Shown here one piece after another: positions 15,446-51,695 of a stretch of 64,000 bases of DNA; positions within the stretch are counted from its first letter, which is position 1, and each line of letters begins with the position of its first letter. The stretch comes from Luteimonas rhizosphaerae (lineage in GTDB: Bacteria > Pseudomonadota > Gammaproteobacteria > Xanthomonadales > Xanthomonadaceae), in the NCBI RefSeq assembly GCF_002849595.1, contig NZ_NRQR01000008.1, positions 62,001 to 126,000 on the forward strand, read 5' to 3'. The notes beneath the pieces were generated by a model. That model had not been told where the DNA came from. It was given only the letters and a program-made list of their open reading frames with translations, and did no database searches. A program made the translations under genes and the position numbers.

Positions 15446-15474
15446 ATGATGTTTTTGTTGCACTGATATGACAG
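15446..15474 (-). promoter_or_regulatory. Pho box upstream of pstS
   Basis: On the minus strand the order is CTGTCAT, 4 bases, GTGCAAC, 4 AT bases (AAAA), ACATCAT. The 11-bp period and the perfect first heptamer match the PhoB consensus (CTGTCAT repeats). The later heptamers are weaker (about 4 of 7). The site lies 55 bases before the pstS ATG, followed by an AT-rich stretch (ATTAAAT) that could be a -10 region. Confidence 0.7.
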
Positions 15475-15803: not shown

Positions 15804-15821
15804 CTGACGCGCAAGTGTAAT
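15804..15821 (+). promoter_or_regulatory. Weak Pho-box-like repeat upstream of the phosphate porin
   Basis: CTGACGC, 4 bases, GTGTAAT: two heptamers at the 11-bp PhoB period but matching only 4 and 5 of 7 positions. It lies 52 bases before the porin start. The spacing and the gene downstream make it plausible; the sequence alone is weak. Confidence 0.3.
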
Positions 15822-17214: not shown

Positions 17215-17715
17215 TCAGGGGGCGGGCACGAACGCGGCCTGCACCCGCAGCTGGCCATCGGTCGCGGCGGCGCTCAGCGTCGTCGGGGCCAGCCCGTAGC
17301 GCTGGCGCAGCGCATCGAGGAACCCGAGCAACTGGCCGGCGGTGGCGGTCTCGACTTCGATGACGAGACTGCCGTCGTCGCCGGTGCTCTCGCGCGTGAT
17401 GCCCAGGCCCGCGCGCGCCGCGCCGTCGAGCACCGCGGTGCGCAGCGTCGCGGCATCGGCCGGCGGGACCGGCATCGTCGAATCGAGCGTCGCGAGCGAC
17501 GCGGCGTTCGCCCGCGCGTCCGCCAGCGCGGTGGCGGCATCCTGCTGGCGCAGCTGCGCCGTATCGCGCGCCTGCCGCAACGGCAGCAGCAGGCCGTACA
17601 CGTAGACGAACGCCGCGACCAGGACCGCCATCACGCCGAGCATCGCGCGCTCGCGTGGTTGCCGCTCGCGCCACCAGGCAGCGATCCGTGCGACGCGGGC
17701 GTCGACGGCGCTCAT
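17215..17715 (-). CDS. gspM: Type II secretion system protein M
   Basis: A bitopic inner-membrane component that dimerises with GspL on the assembly platform. It has 166 residues: a short cytosolic N-terminus, one membrane helix (about 26-46), a coiled-coil-like segment (about 48-75) and a ferredoxin-like periplasmic domain. The start overlaps the gspL stop (ATGA). It is the last gene of this operon; no gspN follows, since the next gene is the convergent porin only 7 bases away. Confidence 0.82.
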   Translation of the reverse strand: MSAVDARVARIAAWWRERQPRERAMLGVMAVLVAAFVYVYGLLLPLRQARDTAQLRQQDAATALADARANAASLATLDSTMPVPPADAATLRTAVLDGAARAGLGITRESTGDDGSLVIEVETATAGQLLGFLDALRQRYGLAPTTLSAAATDGQLRVQAAFVPAP

Positions 17716-18836
17716 CGGCGGCGCTCCAGCGAGACGGTACTGCGCAGCCCACCGTCGACCGGTTGCACATCGAGTGCGACCGGCTCGATGCCGTGCGGCG
17801 CGAGCAGCTCGCGCAAGCTGTCGAACTCCGCGTCGTCGGTGTGCACCAGCCCGACGCGCAGACCGGTCGCAGGCGCGAACTCGTAGCTGTCGAGGCGCGC
17901 GCCCGGCAGCTGTGCAAGCGCGTCGAACAGGCCGGCGGACTGCAGCGCGAGCAGGACCGGCGCCGCGCGGCTCGCGTGCCGCGCTTGCAGCGACACGGCG
18001 GGCTGGTCGCTGCCGATCAGCGTCGGGTCGTGCTGCAGGGCGACGACGTCCGCGCGCAGCTGCAGCCAGTGCGCCCACGCGGAATCGCGCAGGGCCTGGA
18101 CGCCGAGCACGACGAGGGGGGAGAGCACGGCCAGGGTCGCGAGCACGACGAGTCGCCGGCGACGGCGTCGCCCGGCTCGATCCTGTCGCGCGTAGTCGAA
18201 CTGCAACAGGTCGAGCGACGGCGACGAGGCCACGCGCAGCGCGCCGGCCGCCAGCGCGGTAGGCGCATCGGCAGCGGCCAGCGGACGCGTCGGGCTGTCC
18301 GCGATGATCGCGCCCGCCAGCGCCGGCTCGACGGTGAAGGCCAGATCCGTCGTGCGGACGGCCAGCATGTCCTCGATGGGCGCGGTGACCAGCGCGCCGT
18401 CGTCCGCCGGTGCCAGCAGCAGGCAGTCGGGCAGGAGCACGTCGGGGACGATGCCGAGCGCGGCGCACTGACCCAGCCAGGTGTCCATGGCGGCCGTGTC
18501 GGCGAGGGCGACCAGCCGCGGCGCGGCGATGTCGTCACCGGGTGGCGCGATCGCGATGTGCAGGCCGGTCGCGACCGCGGTCTTGTCCTCGACCAGCAAC
18601 CGCGCGGCGGCGAGCGCCTGGGCGGGGAGCCGGGTCGGGATTTCCAGCGACAGCAGACGCACCGCTTCGCCCGGCACCGCGACGATTTCGCGCACGCGCG
18701 CCGCGGTGGGTGTCGCACGCGGCGGCGCGGCGCCGTCGGCGACGATCGTGCCGGCAGCATCGAGCCACCACATCCTGGCCGCGCGCGCGTCGCCGCGCGG
18801 CAGCAGGGTCAGGCGGGTGAGGGTGGGGGGCGTCAT
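17712..18836 (-). CDS. gspL: Type II secretion system protein L
   Basis: GspL recruits the GspE ATPase to the membrane. The 374-residue protein has an actin-like cytosolic domain (about 1-225), one membrane helix (about 237-258) and a periplasmic ferredoxin-like domain. Sequence identity in this family is low; assignment rests on size, topology and its place between gspK and gspM. It overlaps both neighbours by 4 bases. Confidence 0.82.
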   Translation of the reverse strand: MTPPTLTRLTLLPRGDARAARMWWLDAAGTIVADGAAPPRATPTAARVREIVAVPGEAVRLLSLEIPTRLPAQALAAARLLVEDKTAVATGLHIAIAPPGDDIAAPRLVALADTAAMDTWLGQCAALGIVPDVLLPDCLLLAPADDGALVTAPIEDMLAVRTTDLAFTVEPALAGAIIADSPTRPLAAADAPTALAAGALRVASSPSLDLLQFDYARQDRAGRRRRRRLVVLATLAVLSPLVVLGVQALRDSAWAHWLQLRADVVALQHDPTLIGSDQPAVSLQARHASRAAPVLLALQSAGLFDALAQLPGARLDSYEFAPATGLRVGLVHTDDAEFDSLRELLAPHGIEPVALDVQPVDGGLRSTVSLERRR

Positions 18837-19804
18837 TCGTCGGGAGTCCAGCGGCGGGCGGCGAGGCGCGCGGGACGCGCGCCTTCCTGTTGCAGCAGCG
18901 CATTGAGGGTCACCTGGGCGCCGGCGTATTCGACGTCGGCCTCCAGCACGAACCAGTCGCTGCGCAGCGCGACCTGGTCGTAGATGTCATTGGGCAAGTT
19001 CGCCGCGACCAGTTGTGGTTGCGCGAAGAACGCGGCCGGGTCGTGCCAGCCTCGCGCCGGGCGTGCGGCCAGCATGCCGCGCGCCTCGTCGGGCGGCACG
19101 GCGCCCAGGGTCAGCATCGTCAGCAGTGCTGCCCGCTCCGGCGCGAGTGCGTTGACGTTGACCGGCGACAGCGCTGCCTGCGGCAGCGCGCAGACATAGG
19201 GACGGATCCGCGCATAGATCGCGGCCTCGTAACCGTGGATCGCCCGCAATTCGCTGGGTTCGGCCAGCAGCGTGCCGGCCGTGCGGTACGCCGGTCGCCG
19301 CGACAGGTAGGTGCTGTCTTCCGCACCGAGCGGCGCGCGCTGCGCATCGGTGTCGATCCAGTCCGCGAGCGTGTCGGCCAGCGCCTGGGCCTGCGCGGCG
19401 CTGAAACCGATCGCGCCGAGCAGGGCGACGTACTGGCGCACGCCGATCTCCCGCCGCATCCACTGGTCCGGCACGCCGTCGACGACGCTGTTGAGATTGA
19501 AGCAGTCGGTGCCGTCGCGCAGCGACGCGCGGACCAGGCCGTTCTCGATCGGGAACAGCATCGGCTTGCCGGACCACTCGGCGGTGCCGACGCCATCGCG
19601 CGCCAGTTCCGCGACCCGGCGCCGCGCCAGCGCTTCGGCGCCGAGCGCGAACCGCTGTGCCTGCGCGACAGCTTCGGCGTTGCCGCTGCGGCGCAGCCCG
19701 AAACGCACGTCGTCGAGGATCGCCACCACCAGCACGCCCATGACGACCGTCATCAGCAGGACCGACAGCAGCGCGGTCCCGCGCTGGCGGACGCAGCGGC
19801 TCAC
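18833..19804 (-). CDS. gspK: Type II secretion system minor pseudopilin K
   Basis: The large minor pseudopilin at the tip of the pseudopilus. The 323-residue protein starts with GTG at 19804, overlapping the gspJ stop (GTGA); the longer open frame upstream is a shadow of gspJ. The short leader ends at Gly9 before the hydrophobic helix TALLSVLLMTVVMGVLV, and, as in other GspK proteins, position +5 is not Glu. The large globular domain has FNLNSVVDG near residue 102 and helix-hairpin-helix-like repeats (VNVNALAPERAALL near 220). Confidence 0.88.
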   Translation of the reverse strand: MSRCVRQRGTALLSVLLMTVVMGVLVVAILDDVRFGLRRSGNAEAVAQAQRFALGAEALARRRVAELARDGVGTAEWSGKPMLFPIENGLVRASLRDGTDCFNLNSVVDGVPDQWMRREIGVRQYVALLGAIGFSAAQAQALADTLADWIDTDAQRAPLGAEDSTYLSRRPAYRTAGTLLAEPSELRAIHGYEAAIYARIRPYVCALPQAALSPVNVNALAPERAALLTMLTLGAVPPDEARGMLAARPARGWHDPAAFFAQPQLVAANLPNDIYDQVALRSDWFVLEADVEYAGAQVTLNALLQQEGARPARLAARRWTPDE

Positions 19805-20415
19805 AGCGCGGCCTCCGGCAGTACGAACACCTGGCGCACGGCGCCGAAGTCGCGCAGCGTCATGTCGAAGCGCACGGCGTCGGGCAACGTCTCCGCGCCA
19901 CCGGTCCAGCCGTCGCTCCACTGCCGGTACGAATGGAAGCCCAGGTCCATGGACTCGACGCCGGTCAATACGATCTGCGACGTGTCGGCGGGTGCGCCGT
20001 CGAGTGCGGTGCGCGCGCTGCGTTCGAGGCGGCCATCGACGAGCCGGTACTCGACGTACTGCAGCGACGCGCGTGGTTCGCCGTCCGGGTTTTCCCAGCC
20101 GCGCCGTACGAAGGCGACGAGCGTGCCGGCGCGTGCACCGGGCGGCGCCGCGTCGAAGGCGTTGCGCGCCAGGCGTCCGTCCGGGAGGCGGATCCGGCGC
20201 AAGGCGGCCTGCGACAGATCGGATTTCAGCAGGGCATGCGCGCGTTGCAGTTCGGCCAGCCGGTCCATGCGCTCGCGGATCCGCCCCTGGTGGTCGGCCG
20301 TCCACGCGAGGATGGCGACGGCCGCCGCGGACACGAGCGCGAACACCGCCAGGGAGACCATCACCTCGACCAGGGTGAAGCCGCGCGCGCGGTTGCGTAG
20401 CGGAAGACGTCTCAC
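19801..20415 (-). CDS. gspJ: Type II secretion system minor pseudopilin J
   Basis: A 204-residue minor pseudopilin that joins GspI and GspK at the pseudopilus tip. The prepilin peptidase site is ARG12|FTLVEVMVSLAVFALV, with Glu at +5. The C-terminal globular part includes YVEYRLVDGRLERSA near residue 123, typical of GspJ. It overlaps gspI and gspK by 4 bases each. Confidence 0.9.
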   Translation of the reverse strand: MRRLPLRNRARGFTLVEVMVSLAVFALVSAAAVAILAWTADHQGRIRERMDRLAELQRAHALLKSDLSQAALRRIRLPDGRLARNAFDAAPPGARAGTLVAFVRRGWENPDGEPRASLQYVEYRLVDGRLERSARTALDGAPADTSQIVLTGVESMDLGFHSYRQWSDGWTGGAETLPDAVRFDMTLRDFGAVRQVFVLPEAAL

Positions 20416-20771
20416 CGGAACACCCAGGCCTGACCGGCCAGCTGACCGTCCTGGTCGGTCACCTCGATGTCGATCCGCAGCATGCCGGCCTCGCCGGCCG
20501 GCGTGGCCCGGCGCTGCCAGCGCCAGTCGCGACTGGCGACGCGCGTGGTGCCGTCCGACGGTCGCGCCAGCGCGCCCGCGTCGGCCAGCAGGGCATCGGC
20601 GGCGAGATTGTCGGCGACGATGGCGGCGATCACGCGGGTTTCCAGGTGGGCGGCGGTGCGGGTGCTTTCGCCTGCGAGGTTGAGCAGCCCGGCCGCGATC
20701 AGCGCCACGATCGCCAGCGCGACCAGCAGCTCGATCAGCGAAAAGCCTTGCAGGTCAGCGGCCGGGCGCAT
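20412..20771 (-). CDS. gspI: Type II secretion system minor pseudopilin I
   Basis: A 119-residue minor pseudopilin that nucleates tip assembly. The leader ends at Gly9 before FSLIELLVALAIVALI, with Glu at +5. The small globular domain includes RDWRWQRRATPAG near residue 81. The ATG at 20771 lies inside the 3' end of gspH (17-base overlap) and gives the correct short leader; an earlier start would add Arg/Ser-rich sequence. Confidence 0.87.
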   Translation of the reverse strand: MRPAADLQGFSLIELLVALAIVALIAAGLLNLAGESTRTAAHLETRVIAAIVADNLAADALLADAGALARPSDGTTRVASRDWRWQRRATPAGEAGMLRIDIEVTDQDGQLAGQAWVFR

Positions 20772-21255
20772 GGATCCGCACACTGCCGGCCGGCTCGACG
20801 CTGATGTCGACGCGCGCATCGCCGCGGACCAGGCGCAGGGTCTGCGCGTCGCCGTCGCCGGTCGGTCCGAAGCGGAACCCGAGTCGCGGCTGGCGCGGCG
20901 GCAGCGCGGCCTCGACACCCGCGTCCCAGGCGGTCGCGCCGAACGGGCCTTCGTCGAACGGCAGCCACTGGCCGAAGTCCCGGCGGCTGAAGCGGTAGCC
21001 CGCGGCGTCGACCGACACCTGGATCGTGCGGCCGCCGAGAATCGCCTCGTCGCGCGCGTGCTGCAGCCTGCGACCGAAGTCGTCGGCCTGCCGGTACAGC
21101 GTCGCGTCGTCGTCGGGCAGGGTCAGCATCACCGCGGTCGCGGCCATGCCCATGATCGCCACCACCACCAGCACCTCGAGCAGGGTGAAGCCGCGCCCGC
21201 GTAACGGGCGCGACGCCTGGCCGGAGTGACGCCGATGGGGATGGCGCCGGATCAC
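20755..21255 (-). CDS. gspH: Type II secretion system minor pseudopilin H
   Basis: A 166-residue minor pseudopilin. The leader is long and basic, ending at Gly22 before FTLLEVLVVVAIMGMAATAV (Glu at +5). The rest forms a beta-rich globular domain, with FGRRLQHARDEAILGGRTI near residue 60, typical of GspH. It overlaps gspG by 4 bases and gspI by 17. Confidence 0.88.
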   Translation of the reverse strand: MIRRHPHRRHSGQASRPLRGRGFTLLEVLVVVAIMGMAATAVMLTLPDDDATLYRQADDFGRRLQHARDEAILGGRTIQVSVDAAGYRFSRRDFGQWLPFDEGPFGATAWDAGVEAALPPRQPRLGFRFGPTGDGDAQTLRLVRGDARVDISVEPAGSVRIHAPGR

Positions 21256-21704
21256 TGCCAGTTGCCGATGTCCGCGTTGTCGGCGTCGCCGCCCGGTGTG
21301 CCGTCGGCGCCGAAGGAATAGACGTCGAAGGCGCCGCTCTGGCCGGGGATCCGGTACTGGTAGGGGTTGCCCCAGGGATCGGCCGGCAGGCGGCGGATGT
21401 AGCCGCCCTTGCGATAGCGCTCGGGGCGCGCGAGGCCGGGCGGCGCCTGCAGCAGCGCCTGCAGGCCCTGTTCGGTGCGCGGGTAGGTGAGGTTGTCGAG
21501 CCGATAGGTTTCGATCGCCTGTTCCAGCAGCGACACGTCGGCGCGCGCCTTCTCGGCCATGGCGCGATCCTGGCTGGGCAGGACGTTGATCATCACGACC
21601 GTGGCGAGCAGGCCGATGATGACGATGACGACCATCAGCTCGATCAGGGTGAAACCGGCGCTGGCCGGTCGCGGGCGTTGGCGGTGGCGGAGATGCATGG
21701 GCAT
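21252..21704 (-). CDS. gspG: Type II secretion system major pseudopilin G
   Basis: The main subunit of the pseudopilus that pushes substrate through the secretin. The 150-residue precursor is cut after Gly17 before FTLIELMVVIVIIGLLATVV. Strong family motifs follow: AISQ-type helix with ETYRLDNLTYPRTEQGL near residue 70, DPWGNPYQYRIPG near 108, and the calcium-site loop YSFGADGTPGGDADNADIGNW at the C-terminus. It lies 40 bases downstream of gspF. Confidence 0.96.
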   Translation of the reverse strand: MPMHLRHRQRPRPASAGFTLIELMVVIVIIGLLATVVMINVLPSQDRAMAEKARADVSLLEQAIETYRLDNLTYPRTEQGLQALLQAPPGLARPERYRKGGYIRRLPADPWGNPYQYRIPGQSGAFDVYSFGADGTPGGDADNADIGNWQ

Positions 21705-21744
21705 GCCTGTGCGTGGGGAGAGGATGGCGTCGGCGGCGGTCGGG

Positions 21745-22933
21745 TCAGACCAGCGCCAGCGAGTTGAACTGCAGGATCGGCAACAGAATCGACAGCACGA
21801 TCAGCGCCACCACGCCGCCGAGCACGACGATGATCGCGGGCTCCAGCAGGCTCAGCGTGGCGCTGGTGAAGGTGTCGATCTCGCGCTCCATGTAATCGGC
21901 GGCGCGCTCGAGCATCGGGCCGAGCCTGCCGTTGCCTTCGCCGCTGCCGGCCATGTACAGCAGGGTCGGCGGGAACACGCCGGCGCGGCGCATCGAGGCC
22001 GTGAGGCTGCTGCCCTCGTCGATCGCCGTCACCATGTCGAGGGTGGCGCCGCGCAGCACCCGGTTGCCGACCGTGCGCGCGGTGATCGCGAGGCCTTCGA
22101 TCAGCGGCAGGCCGCTGTCGAGCATGATGGCGAGCGTGCGCGCCATGCGCGCCGCGTGCAGGTCGCGCAGCAGGCGGCCCAGCAGCGGCAGCCGCAGCAG
22201 CAGCGCATCGATGCGCAGACGGAACGCGGGCCGTCGCAGCAGGCGCGCGAACACCACCGCGCCCACGATGGCCAGGCCGAGGCCGAGCCAGCCCCAGCTT
22301 GTCACCGCGTCGGAAATCGCGATGACGATGCGGGTCAGCAGCGGCAGTTCGCGGCCCATCGAATCGAACTGCTCGACGACGCGCGGCACGACGAAGGCCA
22401 TCAGCGCGAGCACCACCGCGCCCGCGGTCAGCGACAGCGCGGCGGGATAGACCAGCGCGCCGATCAGGCGGCCGCGCAACTGCTGCTGGCGCTCCAGCAG
22501 ATCGGCGAGGCGCTCGAGGATCTCCGGCAGCGCGCCCGAGCTTTCGCCCGCCGCGACCATCGCCCGGTACAGCGGCGGAAATGCCTTGCCCTGCTGGGCC
22601 ATCGCATCCGCCAGCCGCCGGCCCTCCAGCACCTGCGCATGCGTCGCCATCACCACCCGGCGCACGCCGCGGCGCTCGCTCTGGCTGCCGATGGTGCGCA
22701 GCGCTTCCTCGAGCGGCGCCGACGCGACGAGGGTCGCCAGCTGCCGGGTCAGCAGCGCCAGATCGCGCGTGCCGAAACGGCCGCCCGCGAGGACGCCGCC
22801 TTCGCGCGCGCGCGCCGCGTCGAGGCGAACGGGCACGAGCCGGCGCGATTCGAGCTGCGCTCGCGCCTCGCGCGGGCCGGCCGCGGCAATGGTGCCGGTG
22901 CGCATGCGGCCCTGCGCGTCGAGCGCGGCGTAT

Positions 22934-22953
<20 letters not shown>
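21745..22953 (-). CDS. gspF: Type II secretion system inner membrane protein F
   Basis: The polytopic platform protein of the secretion motor. Its 402 residues hold two repeated cytosolic helical domains with membrane helices at about 168-190, 218-240 and 370-395. Family motifs include FEYAALDAQGRMRTG at the start, LARQLATLV-like TRQLATLVASAPLEEALR near 69, and PALLYMAGSGEGNG-like TLLYMAGSGEGNGRL near 330. The ATG overlaps the end of gspE by 20 bases; a second ATG two codons later is equally possible. Confidence 0.94.
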
Positions 22954-24420
<1,467 letters not shown>

Positions 24421-24424
<4 letters not shown>

Positions 24425-26508
24425 GGCTGCGGTGCCGGCTCCGGTGCGGGCACTACCGGCGTCGCCGGCAGCGGCGCGGGCGCGACCGGTGGCGCAACGG
24501 GCGGGTTGGCGTCGAGATAGTCGCGCACCACGGCGTCGAGTTCGGCCAGGGCGGCCGGGTCGGCGCGCATGCTCTGGTCGCGCAGGTAGTCGTAGCGCTG
24601 CGCCGTGTGGCGCTGGGCATCGGCCGCGTTGCGGACGATCGTCGGGCGCAGGAACACCATCAGGTTGGTCTTGGAACTGCCGCGCGACCGGCTGCGGAAC
24701 AACGCGCCGAGACCGGGAATGTCGCCGAGCACCGGGATCTTTTCGAGGCGTGCTTCCTGGCTCTGGTCCAGCAGGCCGCCGAGCACCACCATCGCGCCGT
24801 CGTCGACGACCACGTTGGTCTCGACCTCGCGCTTGTTGAGCACCAGTTCGTCGTTGTTGCTGCTGACGGTGCCGTTGACCGACGACACCTCCTGCTTGAT
24901 CGCCAGGGTGATGCCGCCACCGGCGTTGATCTGCGGCCGCACCGTCAGATTGATGCCGACGTCCTGGCGGTCGATGGTGCGGAAGGGGTTGTCGTTGTTG
25001 CCGCTCAGCACTTCGCCGGTGGTGATCGGCACTTCCTGGCCGACCATGATCCGCGCGTCCTCGTTGTCGAGGGTCAGGATCGATGGCGTGGACAGCAGGC
25101 TCGATCCGGTATCGCTCTTGACCGCATTGATGATCAGGCCGAACAGCAGGTTGTCGCGCTCGGCCCCGAACCCCAGCAGGCCGCCGCTGAGCCCGAGCAG
25201 CGCCTGGGCGGCAGCCTGGCGGGCGGTGTCGCCCAGGTCATCGTCATCGTCGTCGTCGTCCCGGCCCGCCAGGGCGGCGCCGGCCAGCGAGGTGATCCCG
25301 GGACCGCTGTTGGAGAACTGGGTCAGGCCGACCGGAATCGAACCGTCCTTGCCGGCCAGCAGCAACTGGGTGCCGAGCCGGCTGGCGGCTTCGTCGGAGA
25401 TCTCGACCACCAGCGCTTCGACCAGCACCTGTTCGCGGCGCACGTCGAGCTGGCGGATCACATCCAGCAGGATCCGCTGGGTATCGGGATCGGCGTGGAC
25501 GATCAGCGAGTTGGCACCGGGGTAGCGCACGATCACCGGTCGCTTGCCGCTGGCCGGCGAGATGATCTGGGTATTGGCGAGGTCCGCCGCCCCGCCCGCG
25601 GCCGCGGCGGCCGGCATCGACGCCGCCGCGTTCATGCCCATGCCGCCGTTGCCGGGCAACGCATCCGGCGTCTGCCCGATCAGCTGCTGCAGGACCGGCA
25701 GCAACTGCTCGGCGCTGGCGTGCTGCAGCTTGACCACGGCCACATCGCCGTTGCGCTCGGCGCGCGCGTCGAGGTCCATCGCCAGGCGCGCGGCACGTGC
25801 GACGAGTTCCGGATTGCCGCGCAGCAGCAGCGAATTGCTGCTTTCGACCGGCAGCACCGACAGCGGCGCACTGGCCTTGTCGGCGCCGGTACCGTAGAGC
25901 TCGGCGAGCGTCGCGGCGAGTTCGCGGGCCGAGGTGTTGCGCAGGTTCACCGTATCGATGCTGGCGCTGTCGCGATCGATGCGTGCGACCAGATCGAAGA
26001 TGCGGCGCAGGTTGTCGGCGTAGTCGGCGACCAGCAACTGGTTGCCCTGCGGCAGGGCGACGACGACACCGCCGCGCCCGACCAGCGGCTTGAGGGTTTC
26101 CGCGGCCGCGCGGGCATCGATCCGCTGCAGCGGGAACACCCGCGTGGCGAAGCCGAGCGGCGAGCCGGGCTGCTGCGCGGCGACATCGTCGGGGACCACG
26201 CGATAGGTCGACGGCCCGGCGGGCACCGCGATCAGGCCGTTGCTGCGCAGCATCGCGAGCAGCACGCCCATCAGGTCTTCGTTGGACATCGAATCGCTGC
26301 GGCTGAAGGACACCGACCCTTGCACGCGGGGATCGACGATGAAGGTCGTGCCGGTCGCCCGGGAGACATCCTGGATGAAGGCCTTGAGTTCGACGTCCTG
26401 CATGCGCACGTTGCCGCTGGCTGGCGCGGGCTGCGCGGCCGTGGGCCATGCGGGGAGGGCGAGCGCGCCGGCGATCGCAAGTGACAGCGTGAGCAGACGG
26501 AAATTCAT
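24421..26508 (-). CDS. gspD: Type II secretion system secretin D
   Basis: The outer-membrane secretin channel. The 695-residue precursor has a signal peptide (about 1-25), N0 (VELKAFIQDVSRATG near 40), N1-N3 repeats (about 120-370) and the C-terminal secretin domain with VPITTGEVLSGN near 490 and LVVFLRPTI-like NLMVFLRPTIVRN near 616. Two oddities: a run of eight Asp near residue 414-421, in the region that links N3 to the barrel, and a Pro/Ala-rich C-terminal tail (about 665-695). It overlaps gspC and gspE by 4 bases. Confidence 0.94.
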
Positions 26509-27302
26509 TCGGTACCGCTTCCAAGGGTGACGGTGCGGATCTGTCCGTCACGGCGATAGGTGACGACGGCGCGGGGATCGGTCTGCAGGCGGGCCAGGAC
26601 TTCAGGCAGACGCTCGGGATCGAGCGCATCGCCGTTGACGCTCAACAACACGTCGCCAGGCTGGAGTCCGGCAGCGCGGACCAGACGGCTATCGCCCCGT
26701 GGCAACAGGGTGTAGCCGGCAACACGCCCCGCTTCACGCGTCAGGCGCAGTCCGACCTTCGACAGGAGCTGGCTGGGATTGACGTCGCGTGCGGCAGTGG
26801 TGTCGACGACAGGGGCGGGCGTCTGCACGGGAGCGGGTGCCGCCGGAGCAGTCACATCCGAGGCTGCACCATGCGCGGTGTCTTCGCGATCGTCGGGGAT
26901 CTCCAGCCGGCGCTCGCTGCCGCCAACGCGCAGCAGGACGTGGTCGACCGCCACCGCGGCCAGCACGACGCCCGGCTCCAGCGCTTCGCCGAGACCGAAG
27001 GTCCGCTGGGGGTCGCCTTCATGGGCGAGGATCGCCGAGCCGCCATCGGGGCCGGTACGCAGGCCGAACAGGCGCCATCCTGCCGCGTCGCCGGCGACGG
27101 TCGCCGCGCTCGCTCCGCTGAAGAATGGATCGTGGCCGGCCAGAAGGGGGGGAGGCTGCGCGGATGTCGTCGCAGACACGACGTCGGCTTCCGGCGAACG
27201 CAGCGGCTCGATCAGAAGCCAGCCGATGCGTCCCAGCTGCACCATGACGATGATCGCCAGCAGGATCTGCAGCCAGAACGTCCATCGGTGGATCAGGGAC
27301 AT
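26505..27302 (-). CDS. gspC: Type II secretion system protein C
   Basis: An inner-membrane protein linking platform and secretin, and helping choose substrates. It has 265 residues: a short cytosolic start (MSLIHRWTFWLQ), one membrane helix (about 10-32), the HR domain (WRLFGLRTGPDGGSAILA near 75, binding GspD N0) and a C-terminal PDZ-like domain (GYTLLPRGDSRLVRAAGLQ near 200, GDVLLSVNGDAL near 222). The ATG at 27302 is chosen for topology. It is the first gene of the eleven-gene gspC-to-gspM operon, an order like the Xcs rather than the Xps system of Xanthomonas. A TTGACT box (27357-27362) upstream may be part of its promoter, but the -10 is poor. Confidence 0.88.
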   Translation of the reverse strand: MSLIHRWTFWLQILLAIIVMVQLGRIGWLLIEPLRSPEADVVSATTSAQPPPLLAGHDPFFSGASAATVAGDAAGWRLFGLRTGPDGGSAILAHEGDPQRTFGLGEALEPGVVLAAVAVDHVLLRVGGSERRLEIPDDREDTAHGAASDVTAPAAPAPVQTPAPVVDTTAARDVNPSQLLSKVGLRLTREAGRVAGYTLLPRGDSRLVRAAGLQPGDVLLSVNGDALDPERLPEVLARLQTDPRAVVTYRRDGQIRTVTLGSGTE

Positions 27303-27424
27303 GAAGAGCCGTGGCACGTGCAGGCAGCCGGATGTAACGGAAGTGCGCACAGCCTGAGTCAAAAATATGACGCTTCGGTTGCGGTCTGCGCGAATTCGCA
27401 GCAAATCTGCAATATCCCGAAACG

Positions 27425-27457
27425 CGAGAGGCCCGGCGCATTGCGTCGGGCCTCTCG
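27425..27457 (-). terminator. Stem-loop terminator after the TonB-dependent receptor gene
   Basis: An 11-bp perfect inverted repeat (CGAGAGGCCCG / CGGGCCTCTCG) with an 11-base partly pairing loop follows the receptor stop by about 45 bases. The T-run is poor (GTTTC), so termination strength is uncertain, but it separates the receptor gene from gspC. Confidence 0.6.
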
Positions 27458-27501
27458 ACTGGCCCGCACGACCGGAGTCGTGGGGGCATCCCACCGTTGA
27501 A

Positions 27502-30132
27502 TCAGAACTCCACGGTCAGGCTCAGGTCGTACGCGATACCGGGTTCGTAGCGATAAACGTCCACACGGTCGCCGCCCACTTCCTGGAACTCCTGGAACTC
27601 GGTATCCAGCAGGTTGCGCGCGGTGAAGCCGATCTTGCCGGTGCTGCTCCACAGCGGGAACGACCGGCTCAGGACCAGGTCGAGAGTGGTGCCCGGCTTC
27701 TGGAGATAGTCGGGCTGCCCCGGCAGGCCGCGTGCCGAGATGCGCTCGCTGACGTAGTTCGCGACCAGCGTGGCCTGCGACGAGCCATCGTCGCTCTCGA
27801 GACCGAACTGCAGGTTGGCGATGTGGTCGGCCTGTCCCTGCATCTGATCGCCGTCCTGCACGAAGAGCGTGGCGTCCACCGGTGCCGGATAGCCGTTGGG
27901 CTGCACCGTGTCGCCGGCGTCGGCCTGGATCTCCGAATCCGACCAGGTGTAATTGCCACCGATGTAGAAACGGTGGCGGGCCAGCCAGTCGCCCATGTTG
28001 GGCAGTTCGAGATACTTCTTCGCATCGAGCTCGACGCCGTACAGCGTCGCTGCCGGTGCGTTGAGGTAGCTCTGGAAAATCGCGCCGCCCGAACGCGTGT
28101 TGATGTTGGCCTCGACCGGCTTGTCGATGTCCTTGTAGAACACGCCTGCGGTGAAGTATTCGCCCGGGCTGAAGAACCACTCGTAGCGGGCATCGAAGTT
28201 GATCAGCTCGCTATCGACCAGGTTGGGGTTGCCGGCGAACAGCCGGCTGCTGTTGTCCGGGTCGGTGTACTGCTGCGGCGCCATCTCGCGGAACTGCGGG
28301 CGGGCGAGCGTCTTCGACGCACCGAAGCGGATCTGCTGGTTCTCGGCGAAGTTCCAGGTCAGCGTCAGCGCAGGCAGCAGGTAGTCGTTGCGAAGCGGGG
28401 CGATGCTGTTGTCGCGTTCACCGCTGAAGATGTCGAAGGTGTGCACGGCCTGCACCGAATCCTCGTAGCGCAAGCCGAAGCTGCCGCGCAGGAAGGAGGC
28501 GATCTCGCCCTCGAACTGCACGTAGGCACCACTGGTCTTGAGTGTCGCGTCGTAGGCCGCGGCGCCCACGCTGCTACCGGTGATCTCGATGAGCTCCAGT
28601 AGGTCGTTGCTGAGGTTGTAGTCCGAGAACAGGTAGTCGATCCGCTGGTACTGGTTGTAGAACGGCAACGCGCCGTTGGCCCGGTAGCGGAAGCGCCGCT
28701 CCGAGAAGTTGCGGTCGTTGTCGGAGTAGGCCAGGCCGCCGGAGATCGTCAGGTCCCGCTCCGTCGGCAGGCGCCACGTCACGTCGATGCCGCCGCTGGC
28801 GGTCTCGTCGTCGACCTTGCTGAAATTGAAGTCGTTGGTCGAATTGCCGCCGGCCAGGTGGGCCCAGTAACCATCGTTGAGCTGGTAGCGGATGTTGGTC
28901 TCGTAAGGTGATTCACGGGTGGCCGTGGCCACTGCGCCGCGCCACTCGATCTTCAGGTCGCCGTACTCGCCGAAGCTGTGCGTACCGCGGATCTGGTTGT
29001 TGATCAGCTCGCGCTCGATCCACGACGTGGTGTCGTCGCGGACCTGGCCGCCCGCGGAGAAGTCGAAGCCGTCACGGCTGCGCGCTTCCTTCTGGCTGTC
29101 GTGCACGTACAGCGTGGTCCAGCCGATCGTGTGGTTCTCGCTCTCCAGCCCCAGCCCGAACATGCCGTTCCAGCGGGCGTTGTTGCGGGTGGAGAAGAAC
29201 TGGTAATCGCTCTTGTAGTCGACGCCCTCGGCCAGGAAGTCGGCCTCCTGCTGGACGCCGTCGCGGCTGCTCCATTCGTTCTTGAAGTCGGCGACCAGGA
29301 TCGTGCCCAGACGCACGCCATCGTCGAGTTCCCAGGAATAGCCGGCGCTGGCGCCGAAGTCGAAGCCCGGGTCGATGCTGTTCTTCTGCTGCAGCAGGTA
29401 CAGATTGGGATCGTTGAAGCTGCGGCCGATGGTGCGGATCTCTTCCCGGCTGAAATTGCTGCTGTTGATCGGGCGTCCGGTCGCCAGCGCGGCGCTCAAC
29501 TCGGGCGACATCTTGCGCGCGCCGTCGTCGAAGCCCCACTCGTCGTCGTCCGAGCCGTAGTAGGTCAGGCCGTTCTCGCCGGTGGTCACGCTGTTGCCGG
29601 AAATGCCCACCGACAGGGTGAGGAAGTCCTCATCCGGGACGGCCAATGACTGCAGGTCGATGACGCCACCGCCGAACTCGCCGGGGTAGCGGGCCGAGTA
29701 GGTCTTCTGGACGGTGATGCTCTCGAGCACTTTGCTCGGAAACAGGTCCAGCGGCACGACGCGCTGCATCGGTTCGGGGCTCGGCAGCGGTGAGCCGTTG
29801 AACAGCGCCGAGGAGTAACGCTCGCCGAGACCGCGGACGTAGACGAACTTGCGGCCGACCACGCTCAGCCCGCTGACGCGCCCCAGTGCAACGGCGGCAT
29901 CGCTGTCGCCGGTGCGCTCGAAGTCCTCACGCGTGACGAAGCTTGCCACTTCGGGCGTGTCGAGCATCGGTTCGGGGATGTATTCACCGCGGACCGTGAT
30001 GGCGTCGAGTTGCTGCGCCTGTCCGGCGGGTGTGTCCGCGGACGACGTGCTGGTCTGCGCCAGCACGCCGGAGGGGACGAGGAGGGCGGCGATGGCGAGA
30101 GAGAGGCCGGATCTGATCGGCATGGATTTCAT
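27502..30132 (-). CDS. TonB-dependent outer membrane receptor
   Basis: An 876-residue TonB-dependent receptor with a signal peptide (about 1-25, ending VLAQ), a plug domain (about 45-180, with LDAITVRGEYIPEP near 41, VYVRGLGERYSSALFNG near 97 and YSARYPGEFGGGVIDLQS near 147) and a 22-strand-type barrel. The C-terminus ends in aromatic strand YDLSLTVEF. There is no extra N-terminal signalling domain. The substrate is not predictable. It lies between gspC and the secreted lipoprotein gene in the same direction, an arrangement that suggests the three act together. A good RBS is not obvious at the ATG, which begins the signal peptide. Confidence 0.92.
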   Translation of the reverse strand: MKSMPIRSGLSLAIAALLVPSGVLAQTSTSSADTPAGQAQQLDAITVRGEYIPEPMLDTPEVASFVTREDFERTGDSDAAVALGRVSGLSVVGRKFVYVRGLGERYSSALFNGSPLPSPEPMQRVVPLDLFPSKVLESITVQKTYSARYPGEFGGGVIDLQSLAVPDEDFLTLSVGISGNSVTTGENGLTYYGSDDDEWGFDDGARKMSPELSAALATGRPINSSNFSREEIRTIGRSFNDPNLYLLQQKNSIDPGFDFGASAGYSWELDDGVRLGTILVADFKNEWSSRDGVQQEADFLAEGVDYKSDYQFFSTRNNARWNGMFGLGLESENHTIGWTTLYVHDSQKEARSRDGFDFSAGGQVRDDTTSWIERELINNQIRGTHSFGEYGDLKIEWRGAVATATRESPYETNIRYQLNDGYWAHLAGGNSTNDFNFSKVDDETASGGIDVTWRLPTERDLTISGGLAYSDNDRNFSERRFRYRANGALPFYNQYQRIDYLFSDYNLSNDLLELIEITGSSVGAAAYDATLKTSGAYVQFEGEIASFLRGSFGLRYEDSVQAVHTFDIFSGERDNSIAPLRNDYLLPALTLTWNFAENQQIRFGASKTLARPQFREMAPQQYTDPDNSSRLFAGNPNLVDSELINFDARYEWFFSPGEYFTAGVFYKDIDKPVEANINTRSGGAIFQSYLNAPAATLYGVELDAKKYLELPNMGDWLARHRFYIGGNYTWSDSEIQADAGDTVQPNGYPAPVDATLFVQDGDQMQGQADHIANLQFGLESDDGSSQATLVANYVSERISARGLPGQPDYLQKPGTTLDLVLSRSFPLWSSTGKIGFTARNLLDTEFQEFQEVGGDRVDVYRYEPGIAYDLSLTVEF

Positions 30133-30184
30133 TATTTGCGTGCCTTGACTGCGGTGCGGAGAAATGCCGTACGGGCCGTGCGCA

Positions 30185-30213
30185 GAAGAGCGGCCCGATC
30201 AGGGCCGCTCTTC
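30185..30213 (-). terminator. Stem-loop terminator after the lipoprotein gene
   Basis: A perfect 12-bp stem (GAAGAGCGGCCC / GGGCCGCTCTTC) with a 5-base loop lies about 20 bases past the lipoprotein stop codon. It lacks a long T-run, so read-through into the receptor gene is possible. Confidence 0.65.
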
Positions 30214-30230
30214 TTCATGACGCTGGGGGC

Positions 30231-31715
30231 TCAGAGCGCCTCGCAGGCCGGCTGGTTGGGCAGGCTGCAGGTCCAGCCGGTCCACCAGGTGTCGTTGGCA
30301 TCCTCGACGCCGCCGATGTAATCGACGTTCTCGAAGAAGGCGTGGACGCTGCTCAGGGTCGCGAACGCAGGAACCGCGTTCTCGTTGGCACCGTTGATGA
30401 TGGTGCTCGACAGGGTCGACGGCTGGTTGGACACGTTGTTGGTGCCGGCCTCGAACGCCGTCTGCGCCTTGGCGTTGTTGAACGCGGTCGGGCAGGAGAA
30501 GAACACCGAATGGAAGGTGCCTGCCGCCGCGTTGTCGTCAGCGATGTTCAGGCAGCTCAGACCGGCGCCGGTACCGCCCGCGGGACGCGTGACCACGGTG
30601 TTGTAGAACGAGGCGTTGGTACCCGAGTTGAGCTCGATCGCTGCGCCGGCGAGCGCATTGCCCACGAACGTGAAGTTCGCGATCTTCGGGCTCGAAGCGG
30701 GCGTGCGGTTGATGCTGCTGAACTCGTTCATGCGGTCGCCGCCGCCGGCGCGCTGGACCACGACACCGAACTGGATACCGCCGTTCCAGCCGGTGTCGGT
30801 GTCGAGGCTGTCGTCGTCGGCGCCCGTGACCACGATGCGACGCAGGTTGGTCGAGCCGCCGAAGATCTCGATACCGTCGTCGGAGCTGTTGTGGACCTGC
30901 AGGAATTCCAGCGTCGTGCCGCTGCCGGTGCCGCCGAGGGTGATGCCCTGCAGTTCGTTGCCGGGTGCGATCTCGAAGCCCGAGTACGCCACGCGGACGT
31001 AGCGCATGACGCCACTGTCGTCTGCGGCGTAATTTCCGCCGTACTGCGAGCCGTTCGTGCCTTCGATCGCGGTCTGGCACTCGGGTGTGCCGGACACCGT
31101 GGTGCCCGGGCAGGCGTTGATGGGCGCGCGGCCGAGCAGAATGATGCCGCCCCACAGACCGATCGAGCCCGCGTCGACGTCGCCTTCGATGGCCTGGCGC
31201 GCGGTGAAGGTGATGGGTTCTTCCGCCGTGCCTTCCGCAGCGATCTTGGACCCGCGGTTGACCACGAGGTAGTCGTTGCCCGACGAGGCGAACAGGGTCA
31301 CACCCGGCTCGATGGTCAGCGTCGCCGCGGAAGTCCCGCTGATCGGGTTGCTGAAGTCCGCGCCGCGGTCGGTGCCGACGTTGGTCTTGCCGCTGATCTG
31401 GTAGACGGTGCCCTCGAGATTGGGAACCAGCAGCGAACCGGTGATGACCGGCGGCAGCTCGCAGGCACGCAGCGTGGCGCCGGCGACGGTGCCGCGATCG
31501 GTGAAGCCGGTCGGGCAGTCGGCGGCCGGGCCACCCGTCGGCGGGGGCGTGGTCGGCGGCGGCGTGGTGGGCGGCGGCGTGGTCGGCGGCGGTGCCGGCG
31601 GGAAGGCGCCCTCTCCCGGAGACACCACGCTATCGGAACCGCCTCCACATGCGGAAAGCGCCAGCGCGGCGCCCAACGTCATCAGCAGGGTCTTGGTGTT
31701 GGTACTGACAGCCAT
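30231..31715 (-). CDS. Secreted lipoprotein with Pro/Thr linker and beta-helix-like domain
   Basis: A 494-residue protein of unknown function. It has a lipobox (LALSAC, Cys23), a Gly/Ser start, and a Pro/Thr linker (about 38-62) built of three TTPPP units, then a long Gly/Asn/Ser-rich domain (about 70-494). That domain has short repeated strands such as LTIEPGVTLFASSGNDYLVVN near 133, GSIGLWGGIILLGRAPIN near 183 and LEFLQVHNSSDDGIEIFGGS near 273, the pattern of a right-handed beta-helix or passenger-like fold. Six or more Cys could form disulfides. Its position beside a TonB receptor and a type II secretion operon, and the Pho-box-like site upstream, suggest a surface or secreted protein made on phosphate starvation (inferred). 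Confidence 0.75.
   Translation of the reverse strand: MAVSTNTKTLLMTLGAALALSACGGGSDSVVSPGEGAFPPAPPPTTPPPTTPPPTTPPPTGGPAADCPTGFTDRGTVAGATLRACELPPVITGSLLVPNLEGTVYQISGKTNVGTDRGADFSNPISGTSAATLTIEPGVTLFASSGNDYLVVNRGSKIAAEGTAEEPITFTARQAIEGDVDAGSIGLWGGIILLGRAPINACPGTTVSGTPECQTAIEGTNGSQYGGNYAADDSGVMRYVRVAYSGFEIAPGNELQGITLGGTGSGTTLEFLQVHNSSDDGIEIFGGSTNLRRIVVTGADDDSLDTDTGWNGGIQFGVVVQRAGGGDRMNEFSSINRTPASSPKIANFTFVGNALAGAAIELNSGTNASFYNTVVTRPAGGTGAGLSCLNIADDNAAAGTFHSVFFSCPTAFNNAKAQTAFEAGTNNVSNQPSTLSSTIINGANENAVPAFATLSSVHAFFENVDYIGGVEDANDTWWTGWTCSLPNQPACEAL
31541..31600 (-). repeat. 15-bp tandem repeat encoding TTPPP units
   Basis: Three near-identical copies of a 15-bp unit encode the Pro/Thr linker of the lipoprotein. 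Such repeats can change copy number by slippage, altering linker length without breaking the frame. Confidence 0.7.
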
Positions 31716-31798
31716 CTTGGTGAATCTCCGGTCGGTGCGCGCACAGAGGCATGCGCGGCAGATAAGGAAAACTGTTAAGCGAATGTTTGGCGTTGTTC

Positions 31799-31816
31799 AT
31801 GACAACCCGATGACGG
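31799..31816 (-). promoter_or_regulatory. Pho-box-like repeat upstream of the secreted lipoprotein gene
   Basis: On the minus strand: CCGTCAT, 4 bases (CGGG), TTGTCAT. Each heptamer matches 6 of 7 positions of CTGTCAT and the period is exactly 11 bp. The spacer is GC-rich, unlike the ideal. The site is 84 bases before the lipoprotein ATG, in the right orientation to activate it. Confidence 0.6.
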
Positions 31817-31951
31817 ATCCGGGCTGTGGACACAGGTGTGGGTGCGCGCCGTTCCCCTCGGGCCGCGCAGGCATGGTCGACGACTTGTGTTGCAGTCGTA
31901 TGTTGAAACCGGCGCTTGTGACGCGTCGCGTTTCGCGGAGAGAATCGCGGC

Positions 31952-32803
31952 ATGAGCACACGCCGATTGCCCGACCATCTCGAACAGTGGGTGATAGACC
32001 AGGCCCTGAAAGGCGCCGATCCCGACAGCGTGCTCGCGCCGTTGCGCGACGACGGCTGGGACGAGCAGGAGGCGATCGACGCCGTGCAGGCGGCGGTATC
32101 GGCATTCGTCGAACGCAGATCGCGCGCGTCGGGTCTCCCGCTCCCGGTGCCGGTGCCGGTCCCGATCGAACCGAATGCCGATTCGCTGTTCGATCTGGGC
32201 GACCGCCAGACGCAGATGATCGCCAGCCTGATGCTGCCGCGCGTGGTGATCTTCTCGGGCTTCCTGTCTGACGAGGAATGCGATGCGCTGGTCGAGTCGT
32301 CGCACTCCCGTCTTCGACGTTCGACGACGGTCGATATCGCGACGGGCGGCGACCAGGTCCATGCGGACCGCACCAGCCGCGGCACGTTCTTCGAGCGGGG
32401 CCAGAACCCCTTGTGCGCGCGCATCGAGACGCGGATCGCGCGGCTGCTCGACTGGCCGCTCGAGAACGGTGAAGGCCTGCAGGTGCTCAACTATGGCGTC
32501 GGCGCGCAATACCGGCCGCACTACGACTATTTCGATCCGGCCGAACCCAGCGGCGACGTGCTGCTGCAACGCGGCGGCCAGCGCGTCGCCACCCTGATCA
32601 TGTATCTCAATACACCGCTGCGCGGTGGCGCGACGGTCTTTCCGGACGCGCATTTCGAAGTCGCGGCGGTCAAGGGCAATGCGGTCTTCTTCAGTTACGA
32701 CCGGGCGCACCCGATGACGAAGACGCTGCACGGCGGTGCGCCGGTGATGGCCGGCGAGAAATGGATCGCGACCAAATGGTTGCGCGAGCGCGCGCACGCC
32801 TGA
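31952..32803 (+). CDS. 2-oxoglutarate/Fe(II) oxygenase, prolyl 4-hydroxylase type
   Basis: A 283-residue dioxygenase that likely hydroxylates prolyl residues or a related substrate using 2-oxoglutarate, O2 and Fe(II). Iron ligands are the HYD of YRPHYDYFDP near residue 190 and the distal His in LHGGAPVMAGEKW near 260, where the Lys near 270 should bind 2-oxoglutarate. The N-terminal 75 residues carry a small helical region (LEQWVIDQALKGADPDSVLAPL) not found in the shortest members. It has no signal peptide. It is monocistronic and divergent from the lipoprotein gene. Confidence 0.88.
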   Translation: MSTRRLPDHLEQWVIDQALKGADPDSVLAPLRDDGWDEQEAIDAVQAAVSAFVERRSRASGLPLPVPVPVPIEPNADSLFDLGDRQTQMIASLMLPRVVIFSGFLSDEECDALVESSHSRLRRSTTVDIATGGDQVHADRTSRGTFFERGQNPLCARIETRIARLLDWPLENGEGLQVLNYGVGAQYRPHYDYFDPAEPSGDVLLQRGGQRVATLIMYLNTPLRGGATVFPDAHFEVAAVKGNAVFFSYDRAHPMTKTLHGGAPVMAGEKWIATKWLRERAHA

Positions 32804-43870: not shown

Positions 43871-44425
43871 TCAGACGGCGCCCACGCCGACCAGCGCGCC
43901 CAGCCACAGCGAGAGACTCGCCAGGACCACGCCGATGCCGGTTGCGGCCAGCACGTCGCTGGGGTAGTGCAGCCCGAGCACCACGCGCGACACCGCGACG
44001 CTGGTGGCGAAGGGCGCCAGCAGCCAGGCGAGCGGCGGATAGTGGGCGACCGCGACGATCGAGAACGCGACCGCGTGCAGGGTGTGGCCCGACGGAAAAC
44101 TGAACTCGTCGAGCGGGGCGACCCACGCGCGGATACGGCCGTCGGCAGCGAACGGGCGTGGCCGTCTGGTCCAGCGCTTCAGGCGTTTGTAGAGCAGCAG
44201 CGCGACCGCGCCGGTCGCGGCCATGTGCGTCGCCGCGGCCAGGCCGGCGATGCCGTCCAGCAGCACCAGCAGGCCCATCAGCGCATACCAGAACAGCCCG
44301 TCGCCGAGCCGGCTGACGGCGGTGAAATAGCGGCGGATCGAGGTCCGCGTGCAGGCGCGGTTCGCGCGCAGGCACCAGCCTGCGTCGTGCAGCCGGAGCC
44401 GGCTAGGCGACGGTGACGCGCGCAT
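43871..44425 (-). CDS. PAP2-family membrane phosphatase
   Basis: A 184-residue integral membrane phosphatase, probably acting on lipid or isoprenoid phosphates. The three phosphatase motifs are present: KRLKRWTRRPRP near 82, PSGHTLHAVAF near 112 (catalytic His), and SRVVLGLHYPSD near 145 (nucleophile His). About five membrane helices are seen. The start overlaps the end of the upstream glycosyltransferase gene by 23 bases, so they form a pair likely acting on the same glycolipid or lipid carrier (inferred). Confidence 0.85.
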   Translation of the reverse strand: MRASPSPSRLRLHDAGWCLRANRACTRTSIRRYFTAVSRLGDGLFWYALMGLLVLLDGIAGLAAATHMAATGAVALLLYKRLKRWTRRPRPFAADGRIRAWVAPLDEFSFPSGHTLHAVAFSIVAVAHYPPLAWLLAPFATSVAVSRVVLGLHYPSDVLAATGIGVVLASLSLWLGALVGVGAV

Positions 44426-45590
44426 CGGGCGTCCCCGGGTTGGCGACGGGGACCGGCATCGCGGCACCCGCGGCACGGGCGTTGGCCAGGCGCCCGTCCA
44501 GATCGTGCGCGACCTGGGCCTGGGTGAGGCCGAGGATCGCTTCGCGCGCCGCCAGGCCCATGGCCCGGCGCCGGACGTCGTCGCTGGCCACGCGCAGACT
44601 CTCGGCGATGAAGCCTTCGTCGTCGTCGCAGGCGACCTTGGCCCCGTGCCAGCGGTGGCAGAGCACGTCGGCCGCGGCGCCGTGGTCGAAGGCGACGACG
44701 GGTACGCCGCTGGCCATCGATTCGAGCACCACGTTGCCGAAGGTCTCGCTGCGGCTGGGGAACAGGAACAGGTCGCCGCTGGCGAAATGCCGGCCGAGCT
44801 CGGCGTCGCGGCGCGTGCCGCAGAACACGAAATCGGGGTGCGCGCGTTCCAGGCCCTCGCGCAGCGGGCCGTCGCCGATCCAGATCATCCGCGCGTCGGG
44901 GCGGCGTGCCTGCAGCTCGCGGAACGCGCGGATGGCGAGGCCGAGATTCTTTTCCGCCGCGAGGCGCCCGACGTGGACGACGGCGAGCCCCTCGGGCGCC
45001 ACGCCCCATTCGGCGCGCAGCGCCGCGTCGCGGCGGGCGGGGTCGAACTGCTGGTGGTCGACGGCGCGGGCCAGCACCACCGCGCGCGGGACGCCTTGCT
45101 CGTGCAGGAACGTCGCCAGCGCGCGGGTCGCGACGAGCGTGGTGTCGGCGGCGCCGTGGAAGCGCCGCATCCAGTGCAGCGCCAGCGGCCGCAGCCAGGG
45201 CAGGCCGTAATCGGCCATGTACAGGTCGAAGCGCGTGTGCAGCGCAGTGACGACGGGAATGCCCAGCGCGCGCGCGGCGCGGATCGCCGACCAGCCCAGC
45301 GGGCCTTCGGTGGCGACGTAGATCGCATCGGGTCGCGCGTGCCGCCAGCGACGCCGCAGCTGGCGACCGGCGGGCAGCGCCAGGCGCAACGTGGAATAGA
45401 AGGGGAGTCGCAGGCTGGGGATGCACAACGCGCCTTCGTCATCCGGCCCGCTGCGTTCGCCGGGCTGGGCCGGCCGGACGATGTCGACGTCGTGACCCCG
45501 TTCGCGCAGGCCGCGCGCGTAGGACTGCAGGGTCAGAGCCACACCGTTGATGTCGGGGGCGTACGTGTCGGTGACGATCGCGTAGCGCAT
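44403..45590 (-). CDS. Glycosyltransferase family 4 (GT-B)
   Basis: A 395-residue GT-B fold enzyme. N-terminal motif TDTYAPDINGVALTLQSYARGLRERGH near 7-33 is typical of the MgtA/SqdX-like alpha-mannosyl or sulfoquinovosyl group. The donor-binding half has VHVGRLAAEKNLGLAIRAF near 206 and FLFPSRSETFGNVVLESMASGVPVVA near 276-301 (E-x7-E motif). It probably adds a sugar to a lipid acceptor at the inner membrane; donor unknown. The gene pairs with the PAP2 phosphatase downstream. Its 5' end overlaps the run-on frame of the damaged ppx gene, but not the ppx coding region proper. Confidence 0.87.
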   Translation of the reverse strand: MRYAIVTDTYAPDINGVALTLQSYARGLRERGHDVDIVRPAQPGERSGPDDEGALCIPSLRLPFYSTLRLALPAGRQLRRRWRHARPDAIYVATEGPLGWSAIRAARALGIPVVTALHTRFDLYMADYGLPWLRPLALHWMRRFHGAADTTLVATRALATFLHEQGVPRAVVLARAVDHQQFDPARRDAALRAEWGVAPEGLAVVHVGRLAAEKNLGLAIRAFRELQARRPDARMIWIGDGPLREGLERAHPDFVFCGTRRDAELGRHFASGDLFLFPSRSETFGNVVLESMASGVPVVAFDHGAAADVLCHRWHGAKVACDDDEGFIAESLRVASDDVRRRAMGLAAREAILGLTQAQVAHDLDGRLANARAAGAAMPVPVANPGTPDARVTVA

Positions 45591-45717
45591 CGGTCGGTCC
45601 GCTGTCCTTGGCTGGGCACAGACTGGACCGGCCCGATGCCCGGGCGATGACAGCGGCTTGACGCTTCGGTGACAGCGGCGGCCCCGGGTGGGCGCGCACG
45701 CGGTGGCGCGCGCCGGC

Positions 45718-47326: not shown

Positions 47327-49476
<2,150 letters not shown>

Positions 49477-49480
<4 letters not shown>

Positions 49481-50650: not shown

Positions 50651-50937
50651 GGCGGAGAGTCTAGGCAATGGCGTGCCGCGTGGTCGCGTTCGTCGGTGGG
50701 AGACGTCGCGTGGACGGCCTCGATGGCGGAGCGGCTGAGCGTGCGCGCGGCGCGTTTGTTGTCCGGAGCACGGGTCGCGGGACCTTCGCGATGCCGGTCC
50801 GGCGCCGGTGGATGGTCGTCAGGTCCGGCCGCAAGCGGCCACCGCCGGTGCCCGCCGTCACGCCGGCCACGGCGATCCCGGCCGGAAAGCAGGCGGGGGC
50901 GAAGATGGAGAGACTCGTGGAGATGGCGACCGCGGCC

Positions 50938-51666: not shown

Positions 51667-51695
51667 ACGACAGTTTTATGACCGGTTGGTGACAC
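51667..51695 (-). promoter_or_regulatory. Pho box upstream of phoB
   Basis: On the minus strand: GTGTCAC, 4 bases, CGGTCAT, AAAA, CTGTCGT. The three heptamers match CTGTCAT at 5, 6 and 6 of 7 positions with an exact 11-bp period and an AT spacer in the main pair. It ends 40 bases before the phoB ATG. Confidence 0.8.

Follow-up and report, generated by a model that had tools for sequence, protein, structure and literature searches.

The classical Pho box, as in the E. coli pstS and phoA promoters, is CTGTCAT-N4-CTGTCAT, with the proximal heptamer about 10 bp before the -10 element. The question raised here is whether a repeat of this kind before a surface lipoprotein gene, in 64,000 nucleotides of Luteimonas DNA (the whole stretch analysed, hereafter the window), acts as a PhoB operator. 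The minus strand at 31799-31816 reads CCGTCAT CGGG TTGTCAT, that is, two heptamers (31810-31816 and 31799-31805) separated by N4, each matching CTGTCAT at 6 of 7 positions and repeated with a period of 11 bp. This candidate Pho box is located in the 236-bp gap between the lipoprotein gene (30231-31715, minus strand) and a divergent 2OG-Fe(II) oxygenase gene (31952-32803, plus strand), and it faces the former, whose ATG is 83 bp downstream. An earlier note on this DNA had described the two heptamers, their 11-bp period and their orientation, and its sequence and coordinates proved exact. The site resembles the classical E. coli box in its two direct heptamers with N4 spacing, the proximal one about 10 bp before a -10-like hexamer, but differs from it by two mismatches and a weaker -10. 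This hexamer, AAACAT (31783-31788, minus strand), begins exactly 10 bp past the proximal heptamer, matches TATAAT at 3 of 6 positions and may not be a real -10; the pstS promoters of relatives likewise carry imperfect -10 hexamers (for example, TGAAAT and TCCAAT).

The earlier note called the lipoprotein a surface protein of unknown function, a description that no longer holds. By sequence and gene order, this protein of 494 amino acids with its lipobox cysteine at residue 23 (Cys23) is an orthologue of ElpS (Cc0170) of Caulobacter crescentus. It matches the protein encoded at the place of ElpS in Caulobacter vibrioides T5M6 at 52% (247 of 477 aligned columns, E 2e-152, a single comparison), the T5M6 protein being equated with ElpS/Cc0170 by species, gene order and protein type rather than by the published Cc0170 sequence. 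The lipobox cysteine has the same position in both, and both genes are followed by a TonB receptor gene and gspD. In the available text of Le Blastier et al. (PMC2996285), ElpS of C. crescentus is produced under phosphate lack, located at the cell surface and released in a type II-dependent manner; overproduced ElpS raises extracellular phosphatase activity, apparently without itself being a phosphatase. Since the lipoprotein is an ElpS relative, a Pho box before its gene fits known biology and reveals no new one, and a nameless surface lipoprotein becomes a testable member of the phosphate-starvation response. The phosphate-induced lipoproteins of Flavobacterium johnsoniae show 31-36% identity over 50-54% coverage to the Caulobacter protein, according to the accessible part of PMC8115612. 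By that published description, FI, FII and FIII are similar in being lipoproteins whose production rises when phosphate is depleted, FI and FII lying beside TonB transporters, but they belong to another phylum and FII is found in a cluster with phoBR.

The window lipoprotein has no match in Pfam or NCBIfam at E 0.001. Cys23 is invariant across an alignment of 52 sequences, comprising the window protein and 51 of 77 relatives, with one interrupted frame left out. The structure predicted from these 52 sequences (mean pLDDT 88.7) aligns to right-handed beta-helix proteins (VIA; best Z 22.8 over 280 residues, rmsd 3.2, 12% identity), many of which act on polysaccharides; in this model-based comparison, the matches give a fold, not a function or an activity. 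An ElpS profile found no match among the sequences of solved structures up to E 1, and Foldseek with the predicted structure found none at E 0.001 or better. The interrupted frame belongs to Xanthomonas arboricola pv. guizotiae CFBP 7408 (L052), where elpS ends after 219 residues and the match continues beyond.

Matches to the box with two or fewer mismatches are rare. The window contains three, which precede elpS, a GT4 glycosyltransferase gene and phoB, whereas 100 dinucleotide shuffles averaged 0.15 and never gave as many as three. Thirteen such sites are present in the genome (3,643,456 bases in 34 contigs) and none for the reversed pattern; with three or fewer mismatches, the counts are 71 and 34. 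A simple composition model expects 5.5 sites of the stricter class genome-wide, so the true background lies somewhere between these two estimates, and it puts the chance of such a site in the elpS gap in the right orientation at about 1.7e-4. Eight of the 13 sites were judged promoter-placed and correctly oriented, in an uncurated reading of ORF lists and Pfam matches by the author. They precede genes for a DUF47-Pit phosphate transporter, an alpha/beta hydrolase, a small lipoprotein, a TonB receptor beside a divergent beta-propeller lipoprotein and an Oar-like TonB receptor, as well as elpS, the GT4 glycosyltransferase gene and phoB. Two others overlap coding sequence (L003 and L005) and three are doubtful (L007, L134 and L135), so that the many equally good matches in coding regions that would have spoken against the site according to the earlier note are not seen. 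A point against the box is that many intragenic sites of PhoB in E. coli are transcriptionally inert, as stated in the available part of PMC10294691.

A PhoB matrix was derived from the pstS promoters of 24 relatives, the 31799-31816 site not being included, after six of 30 pstS loci (L142, L146, L148, L150, L161 and L167) had been dropped as near-duplicates or badly started. It gives the elpS site the highest score of the 127,966 window positions; the training sites had been picked from a fixed stretch by their consensus score, a procedure biased toward consensus-like sites, and some of them may not be true boxes. An equally good site occurred in one of 20 shuffled windows (a single site). 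Ranks 2 and 9 fall before phoB (50938-51627, minus strand; TIGR02154, above cut-off), which is preceded by three heptamers at 11 bp (51667-51695, minus strand), and ranks 4 and 7 before the GT4 glycosyltransferase gene (44403-45590), which is preceded by four tandem heptamers (45636-45675, minus strand). The window's own pstS (14300-15391, minus strand), the sole PF12849 match in the genome, has its box at rank 14: CTGTCAT ATCA GTGCAAC (15457-15474, minus strand), matching at 7/7 and 3/7. The earlier note had rightly called the elpS site better matched than this second half. The sequence evidence thus supports its Pho-box reading: the box before the ElpS orthologue is real and very probably functional, and a probability of about 0.79 is given to 31799-31816 being a PhoB operator-promoter that activates elpS. 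This reading is favoured by the other phosphate genes of the window, namely phoB, pstS, pstB, phoU and one for a phosphate-selective porin (PF07396). The alternative that the heptamers arose by chance and are unused by PhoB would accommodate the 5.5 sites of the composition model, the coding and doubtful sites among the 13, the weak -10 and the poor conservation of the exact box described below, but it is unlikely given the absence of reversed-pattern sites, the top rank in the window and the way in which place, strand and gene family all fit.

The promoter was compared with its counterparts in relatives, the best 80 of 447 by contig scan; two with truncated genes (L072 and L105) were dropped, leaving 78 upstream regions, 74 after deduplication and 75 with the window, and counts over these related loci and species are non-independent samples. 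The exact two-heptamer box is not conserved among these best 80 of 447 relatives: 12 of the 74 orthologue upstream regions reach at least 11/14, versus 23 of 1480 shuffles, and many orthologues have a degenerate distal heptamer. What is kept instead in the same sample is the proximal heptamer, followed after exactly 10 bp by a -10 that starts with TA. A score of at least 11 for this arrangement (heptamer-N10-TA) was obtained in 12 of 28 alphaproteobacterial upstream regions, mostly Caulobacterales, and in 15 of 30 non-Xanthomonas gammaproteobacterial ones (the 30 include the window, the 15 do not), again from the best 80 of 447. At other spacings, none reached 11 at 9 or 11 bp and at most two elsewhere among those tested; the mean score is also slightly raised at spacing 21, one repeat further. 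With a score of at least 10, 42 of the 78 elpS upstream regions (41 of 74 deduplicated) from the best 80 of 447 qualify, versus none of 298 control genes, which were taken from the same loci by an ORF and GC rule rather than by annotation. The pstS promoters of 30 loci among the matches listed served as a control and gave a mean of 10.10 at spacing 10 (22 of 30 at least 10) and a nearly equal 10.03 at spacing 5 (19 of 30), so that this control alone is no proof of the N10 spacing. A spacing rule of heptamer, 10 bp and -10 is suggested for PhoB promoter finding in these GC-rich genomes.

The window's own elpS promoter fails this test, with a best score of 6 at spacing 10, away from the 31799-31816 site, because AAACAT matches at only three of six positions and does not satisfy the TA rule applied to the orthologues. 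The pattern STGTCAY-N10-TATAAC has nine matches in the window's genome versus 10 for the reversed control, and the elpS site is not among them. Relatives thus tend toward one heptamer with a good -10, and the window toward a good double box with a poor -10. Among the 17 Xanthomonas upstream regions of the best 80 of 447 relatives, none reaches 11 at spacing 10 and three reach 10. With the pstS matrix, 10 of 28 alphaproteobacterial, 12 of 29 non-Xanthomonas gammaproteobacterial and none of 17 Xanthomonas upstream regions of the same best 80 of 447 lie above the control 95th percentile, and four of the 298 control genes exceed 19.3. The C. vibrioides elpS promoter scores 2.8, which is control level; by eye, it reads CTGTCTT, N10, TAGCCC, with GTGTCAC 22 bp upstream. 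Unlike the window promoter, it has no clear two-heptamer box. The Xanthomonas elpS promoters inspected (among L040-L057, L075 and L077) share another block, ATGCAAC or ATGAAAC, 10 bp and TATAAA, without a good CTGTCAT heptamer there.

PhoB might instead bind the gap chiefly on behalf of the divergent oxygenase gene at 31952, or of both genes. Six of the 78 loci from the best 80 of 447 relatives have an opposite-strand box of 12-14/14 facing the oxygenase gene, and all six keep the oxygenase; in the window, however, the heptamers are directed toward elpS and the oxygenase is faced by no box of at least 10/14, which makes this the least probable of the alternatives and a very remote one. The boxes in those relatives (L066, L067 and L076, 14/14; L084, 13/14; L074 and L080, 12/14) lie about 212-230 bp before elpS, and the oxygenase may be a Pho-regulon member in these Luteimonas and Pseudoxanthomonas strains.

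The sensor kinase gene of the host presents a complication for the PhoB-operator reading. The phoR gene (49480-50650, minus strand) is split over two reading frames, and part of its sensor (PAS-like) region is missing. The PhoR-type sensor domain shares one long frame with polyphosphate kinase (47327-50668), and the HisKA and HATPase domains are in a different frame (49477-50319). When the intact PhoR proteins of seven relatives (441-449 amino acids) are matched to the window, each falls into two segments that lie in different frames. In six of them, a stretch starting at about residue 126-130 and ending at 170-172 is unmatched, and the two segments are 85-88% and 82-85% identical to the window; in the seventh (L179), the unmatched stretch runs from residue 146 to 170. 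Each of 31 genomes of the genus has one PhoR match. The open frame that contains it has 447-563 residues in 28 of them and 724 and 737 in two others, whereas the one in the window's genome has 1163. No second PhoR (PF11808) over the cut-off was found in that genome, where the split gene is the sole match. The split is either true or an assembly fault; a true split might leave PhoB to rely on other kinases or on the kinase half by itself. The split counts against a PhoB operator because the PhoR product should switch PhoB on.

Sites of OmpR-family regulators can resemble each other, and another member of this family with a similar direct repeat could read the element. The degenerate distal heptamer of many orthologues and the split phoR in the host assembly would be consistent with such a regulator, but the pstS-derived matrix that places the elpS site first also finds the phoB and GT4 sites, and the ElpS family is phosphate-controlled in Caulobacter; a different regulator is therefore very improbable.

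If 31799-31816 is a PhoB operator, we infer that, at low phosphate, phosphorylated PhoB would bind both heptamers in place of a -35 element, as is established for E. coli PhoB promoters, and would recruit RNA polymerase to the weak -10 just downstream. The amount of ElpS, a lipoprotein of the outer-membrane surface predicted to fold as a beta-helix, would then rise in the Luteimonas host, possibly along with the products of the TonB receptor and type II secretion genes downstream, and the presumed outcome would be the mobilisation of phosphate from outside the cell.

The genes in question follow elpS closely on the minus strand. The TonB-dependent receptor gene (27502-30132) starts 98 bp past elpS and gspC (26505-27302) 199 bp past the receptor gene; gspC, identified in the window, is followed by the secretin gene gspD (24421-26508) and by gspE, F, G, H, I, J and L (recognised within 17712-24424), gspK being outside the scan. 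The order of elpS, TonB receptor and type II secretion genes is common to the window and C. vibrioides T5M6, and the available text of PMC2996285 already names Xanthomonas campestris, Sphingomonas alaskensis and Hyphomonas neptunium as sharing it. Among the 78 loci from the best 80 of 447 relatives, the receptor follows elpS in 76; a position rule identified 74 of these and a partial match L045 and L076, and the remaining two loci have less than 1.6 kb of downstream sequence. The gspD gene was found in 67 of the 78. Seven of the 11 loci without gspD have less than 4.7 kb downstream; the other four (L068, L096, L097 and L101) have 6.3-7.5 kb. Beyond the gsp genes, the window encodes the phosphate-selective porin, pstS, two permeases, pstB and phoU, and elpS and pstS are found within 18 kb of each other in five (G000, G009, G020, G021 and G031) of 16 same-genus genomes with a full-length elpS match.

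No classical sigma-70-like promoter or terminator was found within 27250-32000, so the receptor and secretion genes could be co-carried from the elpS promoter. The Caulobacter type II secretion system belongs to the PhoB regulon (PMC11208175, available part). The Caulobacter receptor gene cc0171 is described as constitutive in the available text of PMC2996285, which counts against one shared unit. A wider reading would have one PhoB promoter at 31799 drive elpS, the TonB receptor and the whole type II cluster, as a module whose strict N10 PhoB promoter was kept or transferred across Caulobacterales and Xanthomonadales and was rewired in Xanthomonas, with the split phoR perhaps leaving a free kinase half that keeps the module on. 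Taken together, these proposals are possible but doubtful; if true, the type II system of this Luteimonas-like lineage would in effect be a phosphate-starvation organelle. The PhoB operator itself would extend the link between ElpS and type II secretion from Caulobacter to Luteimonas-like Xanthomonadales, with evidence at the promoter level. Among the literature matches listed, which mostly exclude subscription journals, there is no report of a PhoB site for elpS in Xanthomonadales, and neither 'TonB' nor 'Pho box' occurs in the available part of the Xanthomonas citri Pho regulon paper (PMC5439949).

Other Pho-like sites point to further candidate targets. The third-best matrix match (15804-15821, plus strand) is 51 bp upstream of the phosphate-selective porin gene (15873-17207, divergent from pstS). 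The GT4 glycosyltransferase shows sub-cut-off matches to glycolipid synthases, which suggests phosphate-free lipid synthesis at low phosphate. Elsewhere in the genome (L136, 2996-3196), a Pho box lies between the genes of a TonB receptor and a beta-propeller lipoprotein, the latter with a weak phytase match below cut-off.
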